Shown here one piece after another: positions 54,054 to 55,990 of a DNA stretch of 64,000 nucleotides; the first letter of the stretch is position 1; each line of letters starts with the position of its first letter. A program made the translations under genes and the position numbers. The DNA is from Brevibacillus massiliensis (GTDB taxonomy: Bacteria; Bacillota; Bacilli; Brevibacillales; Brevibacillaceae), in contig NZ_HE978535.1 of the NCBI RefSeq assembly GCF_000311785.1, positions 633,922 through 697,921 of the forward strand. Direction: 5' to 3'. Below the pieces are notes generated by a model. The model saw only the letters and a program-made list of their open reading frames with translations. It was not told where the DNA came from and did not search any database.

Positions 54054-55283
54054 TTATTCCCTTTGTGCCGCTGGAACCTTCAGCAAAGGCAGCATGATGA
54101 TGACGCCGACGATGAACAGCACCGTGGCGGTTTCAAACATCGCCATCAGCGAGAATACCGATTTCAACCAGCCTGAGACGCTCATCGTGAGGATCATGGT
54201 GCCCATGAAAACAGGGTTTAAAATGCCGTTGACCCGGCCGACGAAATCGGATTCCGTATTTTGCAGAATCATCGTGTTAATGCCGATCGAGATGCAAGGC
54301 ATGGCCAGTCCGCCGATGAATTGAGCCGTCAGCGTCAGCCACAATTGGCTCGACAAGCCCATCACCAGGAACCCGCAAGCACTCATCGTCATCCCGATCA
54401 AGAGCAGCTTTAGCGGCGCGATCTTTTTGGCCAAGCCCATCACCAGGATTCCTCCCAAGATCATCGCGATCCCATTCGCCGCCATGAGCCATTGAAGCTG
54501 TTCTTTTGGCAAGCCGAGCCGCTCGGTGATAATGAAGACGGACAGCGGTTGAATCAGGCCGATCGCTAGGCCAGCCGCCGCAAAACAGCCGCCAAGCAAG
54601 GTAAGCGTGCGATTTTGCAGCACGTAACGGAATCCGGCCTTCATTTCTTCCCAGATCGTCTTCTCTTTCCGCTTCTCTTCAATCCGGTCCGGAGGGAGCA
54701 AAAGCAGCACGGCAGCCGACAGCAAAAAGGCAATCCCCATGGCGCCAATCGCGATATCAATGCCGTAATGCTGGTAGACGAACGTACCGATGACCGGTCC
54801 GAGGATCATAAACAGCGCGAAAATCGTCTGGTACAAGGACATTCCCATCTGGATCAGTGCTTCCGGAACATGCAGCTTGAACAGCTTCATCCCCGACGGC
54901 TGGGAAAACTGCGACAGGATGGACGATACCAGCGTCGCAAAGAAAATCGCTTTCCAACTGCCGAATACGAGCGTCAACAACACGGCAAACACCGATGCAG
55001 AGCTGAGCAGATCACACCAGACCATGGTCCGCTTGGGCCGCCAGCGGTCGGCGAATGTGCCGCCAATAAACGAAAACAAGAAGATCGGCGCAAATTCAGC
55101 CACGTAAATGAGTGAAACAGCGACCGGGTCCCCGCTCGTCTTTTCCATGACAAATAGCAAAATAGAGTAATTGCGAACCCAGATGCCAATCTGCAGAAAA
55201 AAAACGGAAAGCAAGATGGTGCGGACGACTCGGTTGCGAAACAAGTCCCCCATTGAAGCTTTTGATTCTGTGTTTCCTGTCAT
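54054..55283 (-). CDS. MFS exporter
   Basis: A 409-residue, twelve-helix major facilitator of the MFS_3 (enterobactin exporter/macrolide efflux-like) type. It shows FSFIGGTFADRWRPKRTMVW as the loop 2-3 motif and SQFSQPSGMKLFKLHVPEAL typical of the group. It likely exports a drug or siderophore-like compound. A good AAGGAGAGGGG site precedes the ATG. The gene sits behind a ~430-base leader with three tandem terminators and an upstream small ORF, so its expression appears to be controlled by attenuation. Confidence 0.88.
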   Translation of the reverse strand: MTGNTESKASMGDLFRNRVVRTILLSVFFLQIGIWVRNYSILLFVMEKTSGDPVAVSLIYVAEFAPIFLFSFIGGTFADRWRPKRTMVWCDLLSSASVFAVLLTLVFGSWKAIFFATLVSSILSQFSQPSGMKLFKLHVPEALIQMGMSLYQTIFALFMILGPVIGTFVYQHYGIDIAIGAMGIAFLLSAAVLLLLPPDRIEEKRKEKTIWEEMKAGFRYVLQNRTLTLLGGCFAAAGLAIGLIQPLSVFIITERLGLPKEQLQWLMAANGIAMILGGILVMGLAKKIAPLKLLLIGMTMSACGFLVMGLSSQLWLTLTAQFIGGLAMPCISIGINTMILQNTESDFVGRVNGILNPVFMGTMILTMSVSGWLKSVFSLMAMFETATVLFIVGVIIMLPLLKVPAAQRE

Positions 55284-55396
55284 GTGATTCCCCTCTCCTT
55301 ATCATGCTGGACCGGAAGCTGTCGCCTCAATCCAGCCGGTAAAATTTGATGCGCCGTTTTATGGAAACATCGTCAACCCCTCCTTATCCCATGACA

Positions 55397-55420
55397 CAAA
55401 AAACGTCGGATGATCCGACG
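55397..55420 (-). terminator. Leader terminator 3 of MFS gene
   Basis: On the minus strand CGTCGGA TCA TCCGACG forms a 7 bp stem with 3-base loop, followed by a T tract. It is the nearest of three tandem hairpins to the MFS gene. Confidence 0.7.
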
Positions 55421-55432
55421 CCTGTTCCCGTG

Positions 55433-55462
55433 AAAAAGACGTCGGTATCTTTCCCGACGTCT
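55433..55462 (-). terminator. Leader terminator 2 of MFS gene
   Basis: On the minus strand AGACGTCGG and CCGACGTCT form a perfect 9 bp stem followed by TTTTT. Its stem sequence repeats that of the neighbouring hairpins. Confidence 0.75.
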
Positions 55463-55471
55463 CATCGCCAT

Positions 55472-55498
55472 AAAAAAGACGCCGGGTTCCCGACGTCT
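55472..55498 (-). terminator. Leader terminator 1 of MFS gene
   Basis: On the minus strand AGACGTCGGG and CCCGGCGTCT form a 10 bp stem with one mismatch, followed by TTTTTT. It begins about 15 bases after the end of an upstream 47-codon frame. Confidence 0.75.
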
Positions 55499-55546
55499 GT
55501 CTTTGTGGATTCTCATACTTGTTGGACTCGCAGCATCCGCAACTGA

Positions 55547-55669
55547 TCAGTCAAGTTGCGAACACGAAGCATACACCAAGGGCACAGAGTGATCGGGATG
55601 GTTTTTTTGTATTTGGTTGTTGGTAAAAGCTGCATCTGTAAAGTGAATGAAACCATTATCCCAAACCAT
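55547..55669 (-). CDS. Candidate leader peptide of MFS gene (40 codons)
   Basis: AAGGAGGTAA lies at normal spacing before this ATG, the best ribosome site in the leader. The frame starts MVWDNGFIHFTDAAFTNNQI and ends CSQLD. An overlapping frame (55513-55656, 47 codons, with CPWC and ending LRMLRVQQV) is an alternative with a weaker start. Neither resembles a known family. Translation of either would reach close to the first terminator hairpin. Confidence 0.45.
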   Translation of the reverse strand: MVWDNGFIHFTDAAFTNNQIQKNHPDHSVPLVYASCSQLD

Positions 55670-55700
55670 TGTCTGTTACCTCCTTCTTCTGGTATGAAAA

Positions 55701-55752
55701 AAGTAATTACTTGGTAATGCAAAGTATAGTATGACTTTTGATGTCGTGTCAA
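55701..55752 (-). promoter_or_regulatory. Strong promoter and palindromic operator of the MFS leader
   Basis: On the minus strand TTGACA (55747-55752), 18 bases, TATACT (55723-55728). The perfect palindrome AAGTAATTACTT (55701-55712) sits a few bases after the expected start site, as a repressor site would. No regulator gene for it was identified nearby. Confidence 0.7.
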
Positions 55753-55792: not shown

Positions 55793-55990
55793 TTAAAGCG
55801 AGGCGAATTTCTCTCTTTGCTTCAACAGCTCTGCTTTTTTGGCGGGCCATTCTACACACCAGTCTGAACAGTACAGAACCGTTTTGCCGGAGTCGTCAAG
55901 CTTTTCAATGCGATCTGCGTAGACCAGCTTTCCACAAATGGAGCACTTTTCGTATTTTTCAACATAAAAGCCATTGCTGGAAAATTTCAT
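55793..55990 (-). CDS. Small zinc-ribbon protein
   Basis: A 65-residue protein with two Cys pairs (CSICG at 16-20 and CSDWC at 41-45) that would bind one zinc or a metal cluster. It lies 24 bases after the end of the truncated hydantoinase B gene in the same direction, so it is probably the last gene of that former hyuAB operon and may have served as an accessory subunit. Function unknown. Confidence 0.72.
   Translation of the reverse strand: MKFSSNGFYVEKYEKCSICGKLVYADRIEKLDDSGKTVLYCSDWCVEWPAKKAELLKQREKFASL

Follow-up and report, generated by a model that had tools for sequence, protein, structure and literature searches.

In one leader of the 64-kb stretch of DNA analyzed here (the window), a dedicated promoter feeds into three terminators in a row ahead of an exporter gene. 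All parts of this leader lie on the minus strand, in the order promoter, leader ORF, three terminators, and MFS gene; each of them, including the related stems of the terminators, had been described in an earlier note on this DNA and is present in the sequence, and the span given there (55284-55752) is correct. The promoter, TTGACA-18-TATACT (55723..55752, with TTGACA at 55752-55747 and TATACT at 55728-55723), scores 11 out of 12 against the sigma-70 consensus. Behind it come a strong Shine-Dalgarno sequence, AAGGAGG (55679..55685), and a leader ORF of 40 codons, MVWDNGFIHFTDAAFTNNQIQKNHPDHSVPLVYASCSQLD (55547..55669, with the ATG at 55669 and the stop at 55547). The gene at the far end of the leader (54054..55283) codes for 409 amino acids with a match to the Pfam MFS_1 model; its best NCBIfam match, below the cut-off, is the H+ antiporter subfamily TIGR00900, a group which we take to include the Mef-like exporters. 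The product is predicted to be a drug-exporter-like MFS protein of the DHA3 type, and its orthologs occur across Bacillales.

The terminator array begins 48 nt past the end of the leader ORF (first terminator starting at 55498) and is made up of T1 (55477..55498, -14.2 kcal/mol, tail TTTTTTATG), T2 (55437..55462, -15.9 kcal/mol, tail TTTTTCAC), and T3 (55401..55423, -12.4 kcal/mol, tail TTTTGTG), whose 5' stems are near-identical (AGACGTCGG in both T1 and T2, AGGCGTCGGAT in T3). Under a strict definition of a terminator (at least 8 bp, at least 4 GC pairs, and a U-tract), both strands of the window together hold 11 hairpins, and the only triple within 200 nt is that of the exporter leader; a simpler scan recovered T1 and T3, with a count that was not above chance. 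The possibility that the array stem is a terminator dispersed throughout the genome was ruled out: its pattern is confined to this leader in the window's genome (G000), and in other genomes of the family it occurs outside the leader only as scattered single copies.

The same leader layout, here termed type B, is also found ahead of the ortholog in four other genomes: L002 (G027), L003 (G005; the same locus as L033, Brevibacillus sp. SYP-B805), L004 (G010), and L005 (G009; the same locus as L043, a Brevibacillus MAG). The layout is kept in five genomes from four genera of the family, each time before the same gene, these loci representing no more than about three independent lineages; in the gene tree they lie near one another, not clearly as one clade. 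The earlier note had proposed a search for the leader upstream of homologous MFS genes and would have counted a lack of conserved hairpins against itself, and both layout and hairpins are conserved in these four relatives. No further carriers of the array were found in 399 genomes of the class or among the best 80 of 162 GTDB relatives. Common to the type B loci are the promoter (TTGACA, a spacer of 17 to 18 nt, and TATA[CA]T in all five), the Shine-Dalgarno sequence, the codons for P-D-[HRC]-S, and the 5' arm of the first terminator, CGUCGGGAA. The leader ORF of the relatives varies from 21 to 41 codons, and the number of hairpin units ranges from two (L003, L005) and three (the window) to six (L002, L004), with gaps between units of 13 to 14 nt in four loci and of 60 nt in L005. 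Of the six units in L002 and in L004, three have a full U-tract and three are without it. One other locus, L036, has an upstream ORF with K-P-D-H-G and no clear array.

A 12-base palindrome, AAGTAATTACTT (55701..55712), does lie just past the promoter, where the earlier note saw a second control at the level of DNA. Perfect 12-mer palindromes number 17 in the window against 15.6 expected, and a comparison of the loci found no counterpart at that place in any of the four relatives; being at chance level and unconserved, the palindrome is ruled out as an operator and is probably no functional part of the leader. At the other end, between T3 and the exporter, sits a possible second mini-ORF, ATG TTT CCA TAA (MFP; 55359..55370), with a Shine-Dalgarno sequence AAGGAGGGG at 55385-55377. 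Three-codon ORFs, ATG GGC AAC/AGC TGA, occupy a comparable position in L002 and L004, and L003 is without a start codon there. Outside the leader, a 65-residue ORF (55793-55990, minus strand) gives weak matches, below cut-off, to TRASH/MYM zinc-finger models, and the ORF directly upstream of it is presumably hydantoinase-B-like.

The leader RNA folds 4.9 sd better than its shuffles, and three pairings link the leader ORF to the first terminator. The anti-antiterminator is formed by segment 1 (55650..55678), which lies around the start codon of the leader ORF, and segment 2 (55583..55604), the stretch of the x-P-D-x-S codons; segment 2, with its core UCCCGA at 55598-55593, is also the antiterminator strand, whose partner is segment 3, the 5' arm of T1 (AGACGUCGGGA, UCGGGAA, within 55477..55498); and segments 3 and 4 form T1 itself. 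Another hairpin, P1 (55527..55569), lies between segment 2 and T1 and overlaps the last part of the leader ORF; the relatives are predicted to have a hairpin of different sequence in a similar position.

When the whole leader is searched, the T1 5' arm finds its strongest partner in segment 2 in five of five loci (-12.4 to -18.3 kcal/mol), with 12 bp and -18.3 kcal/mol in L002, where the helix runs from the loop into the stem. Against local shuffles, the pairing of segment 2 with this arm gave p values of 0.0135, 0.0005, 0.002, 0.000, and 0.0165 in the five loci; with any partner allowed, these became 0.002 to 0.048 in L002 to L004 and were weak in the window (p 0.126) and in L005 (p 0.142). 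The 1:2 pairing is found at corresponding places in all five loci (shuffling test, p 0.023 in the window and 0.000, 0.038, 0.001, and 0.019 in the others), and its helix is built from different bases in the three lineages (ACAGA/UCUGU in the window, GAACGAUC/GAUCGUUC in L002, and AGAACA/UGUUCU in L005), a pattern expected of a conserved helix. The leader peptides share an MV start and P-D-[HRC]-S, the latter being the main stretch that all five have in common. All five loci use CCC as the proline codon within segment 2, even though this is a minor codon (21% of proline codons in seven window genes, and zero to one per MFS gene), an indication that the RNA is under selection. We take P-D-x-S to be kept mainly as RNA.

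One could read the array as nothing other than stacked terminators that insulate the exporter from transcription, with the leader ORF being incidental. The hairpins are indeed strong and mostly furnished with U-tracts, duplicated terminators are easily gained, and some of the units in L002 and L004 are without a U-tract. However, a dedicated, near-consensus promoter is conserved upstream of the array, which would be pointless if transcription were always terminated, and the leader ORF is conserved along with the 1:2 and 2:3 pairings. Plain insulation is therefore, in our estimate, very improbable.

From the sequence, all five genomes have the promoter, the leader ORF with its ribosome-binding site, and the intrinsic terminator of an attenuator, and the computed folds supply a mutually exclusive anti-antiterminator, antiterminator, and terminator that overlap the ORF, with the 2:3 pairing weak when the window is taken alone. 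Thus located and compared, these parts, their conservation, and the exclusivity of their pairings are results of computation; translation of the leader ORF and stalling of ribosomes upon it would then supply the control. We propose that the leader is a ribosome-controlled transcription attenuator placed before an efflux gene, with the logic of trp and vmlR and a multiplied terminator, and we consider this likely. When translation flows freely, the ribosome would pass over segment 2, T1 would form, and transcription would stop; when there is no translation, segment 1 would hold segment 2, and T1 would again form. Polymerases that leak through would then meet the second and third terminators. 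A translation inhibitor that halts the ribosome at the opening codons of the leader ORF would leave segment 1 covered and segment 2 free to seize the 5' arm of T1 as it emerges, so that T1 does not form and the exporter is transcribed. The inducer may be a drug acting on initiation or early elongation, by analogy with vmlR for example a lincosamide, a pleuromutilin, or a streptogramin A.

Folding of the nascent RNA is consistent with these steps. With the start region blocked over the length of a ribosome, the probability that segment 2 pairs with the T1 5' arm is 0.99 to 1.00 in five of five loci, a value that holds once this arm has emerged, and with segment 2 blocked instead it is 0. At equilibrium, covering segment 1 lowers T1 from 0.97 to 0.03 in L002 and from 0.96 to 0.35 in L004; in the window, L003, and L005, T1 outcompetes the 2:3 pairing, and a switch in these three would hence need to be kinetic. 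Free RNA prefers 2:3 over 1:2 in the window (0.99) and L003 (0.96), which implies that the untranslated RNA of these two is not shut off, unlike that of L002, L004, and L005.

A different role for the ribosome would be to sense the peptide, in which case the conserved P-D-x-S residues would cause drug-dependent arrest from within the exit tunnel and the halted ribosome would remodel the RNA downstream. P-D-[HRC]-S is, after all, the main stretch common to the leader peptides, the sites of macrolide arrest include XP and XPX (PMC13410324), and the orthologs L034 and L035 carry KRIR-type upstream ORFs that resemble macrolide arrest leaders. Yet a ribosome halted at P-D would mask segment 2, favoring the terminator (the case with a pairing probability of 0), the conservation reaches down to a minor synonymous codon, the same bases account for two pairings, and no R/K-X-R/K (+X+) macrolide-arrest motif is found in the leader peptide of the window. 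We regard peptide sensing as quite unlikely.

Several parallels to this attenuator are offered by known systems. In Bacillus subtilis vmlR, whose mechanism is experimentally supported, drugs that stall initiation hold the ribosome on the upstream ORF MIN, the anti-antiterminator is thereby prevented, and the antiterminator forms (PMC9226507). As in the type B leaders, the ORF start there lies inside the anti-antiterminator, and the antiterminator keeps an intrinsic terminator ahead of a resistance gene from forming (PMC9226507); the differences are the ORF length (21 to 41 codons against 3 in vmlR), the sequence, and the tandem array in place of one terminator. The window is also without the three-codon ORF inside SL-1 that marks vmlR and the Rfam family ncr1575, its leader ORF having 40 codons, and neither the window nor its genome has a covariance-model match to ncr1575 (RF02452). 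We identify ncr1575 with the vmlR leader ourselves, since the sequence of uORF(MIN), AUGAUUAACUAA, is part of its consensus and its only control match is B. subtilis. No known riboswitch or T-box was matched in the window at the Rfam gathering score; the weak matches, sroD and others, fall far below their gathering scores and were taken as chance.

The bmrB leader of the B. subtilis bmrCD genes, which likewise precedes a drug transporter, has a leader ORF for which a terminator, an antiterminator, and an anti-antiterminator have been predicted (PMC4191407), and the earlier note had invoked it for a translated leader that switches a terminator before the MFS gene. That notion is favored by the conserved layout and by the 1:2, 2:3, and 3:4 parts located by computation, but the analogy itself is imprecise: the single terminator of bmrB lies within the ORF (PMC4191407), whereas the three of the window lie beyond it, and bmrCD encodes an ABC transporter rather than an MFS protein. 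The logic of the window leader is closer to that of vmlR. The logic of alternating 1:2, 2:3, and 3:4 pairings is that of the trp attenuator, and in his several mutually exclusive consecutive pairings make up a chain of alternating hairpins. The window leader differs from both in having no run of regulatory codons, in a trigger that would be a drug, and in more than one terminator. More than one attenuation step within a single long leader is also known from Salmonella mgtCBR, where the steps belong to two different short ORFs, in contrast to the near-identical terminators repeated behind one ORF here (PMC3641672). With the terms used, a literature search found no tandem terminators associated with drug leaders.

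The earlier note proposed that three stacked copies would give very tight control of the off-state or a graded release. The variable number of terminators raises the further question of how one antiterminator can serve several of them, for the pairing of segment 2 with T1 on its own leaves T2 and T3 armed. One possibility is a shift of register, in which the repeats themselves matter and the choice made at T1 propagates through the array. Once segment 2 has captured the first 5' arm, the 3' arm left over from unit 1 would bind the 5' arm of unit 2, and the 3' arm released there would do likewise with unit 3, so that all three terminators are disarmed. In most steps, the cross hairpins are roughly equal to or stronger than the downstream unit's own (in the window, -18.9 against -15.9 and -16.3 against -12.4), although the two energies were computed with slightly different flanks that favor the former. 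Cross-pairing reaches probabilities of 0.78 to 1.00 at the stage when the preceding 5' arm is occupied and, of the next unit, the 5' arm has emerged but the 3' arm has not; the gaps of four loci are regular, at 13 to 14 nt; and the long spacer of L005 folds so as to join both arms (-33.3 against -22.8 in shuffles, p 0.004), the spacer tests being individually weak elsewhere. Against this, related arms cross-pair automatically by descent after duplication, the excess beyond descent is slight (p 0.07 to 0.18 per locus, in loci that are not all independent), and at equilibrium later units often keep their own hairpin once the first arm is taken (T3 of the window, 0.92; T2 of L003, 1.0). An excess of this size is too weak for the shift to be adopted, and we regard it as a tentative and rather unlikely extension of the attenuator, in which cross-pairing of neighboring units might pass one decision down the array. 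Alternatively, T2 and T3 may simply be leaky or serve as a backstop.

Separately, the units of L002 and L004 that are without a full U-tract (2, 4, and 5) are interspersed among the terminating units, and their tails (e.g., TTCGTGCGCAGCGTGAG) can instead extend pairing to the next unit. A more general form of the register idea, in which one upstream decision sets the register of a run of interchangeable hairpins, is doubtful in our judgment. If it is true, then all units with U-tracts would terminate in register, and none would when shifted by one arm; terminators could be gained or lost without rewiring of the sensor, and the off-state would be multiplied at no cost in inducibility.

Beyond the type B loci, leaders that fit a vmlR-type pattern (GGAAGGGTGAC...ATG NNN NNN TAA followed by a terminator-like hairpin adjoining the MFS start) precede the orthologous gene in 54 of 103 loci that have no array, with upstream ORFs that read MIY, MNN, MIC, MIF, MIN, and others. 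One of these, L040, gives a match to ncr1575 that falls short of the gathering score (45.2 bits, E 1.1e-5); the vmlR-type leaders tested being unmatched or below the cut-off of this model, the family looks wider than Rfam has it. Such leaders lie about 150 to 400 nt upstream of the MFS gene in L006, L008, L009, L037 to L039, L041, L142, L143, and others, and the 3' arm of their hairpin carries AGGAGG close to the MFS start. Other leaders are distinct again. L034 (= L141) has an upstream ORF, MSTAFKRIR, 280 nt from the MFS gene, and L035 has MAEKLSFNLVPGAQSRKRIRKCR... (...SRKRIRKCR...) at 136 nt, both resembling macrolide-arrest (R/K-X-R/K) leaders. A conserved ORF, MGTLFVF, stands behind AAAGGTGGTAT a few hundred nucleotides upstream of the gene in L102, L103, L148, L150, and L151 and is followed by a terminator-like hairpin (CCGTGGGTGCAGACTGCATTCACGG in L150 and L151) as a further leader type.

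By these sequence patterns, the exporter family repeatedly bears leaders of the translation-inhibitor type, with the type B clade having its own kind, and this recurrence supports a drug-responsive role for the leader in the window. We conclude that the latter is genuine and conserved, and that it is an attenuator, probably under ribosome control, whose terminator array varies in size. Absent from Rfam and from the papers searched, it would join the group of elements that link efflux genes to translation inhibitors. Across Bacillales, one orthologous exporter uses at least four unrelated leaders, so that the sensor has been exchanged while the idea of the wiring seems to stay.
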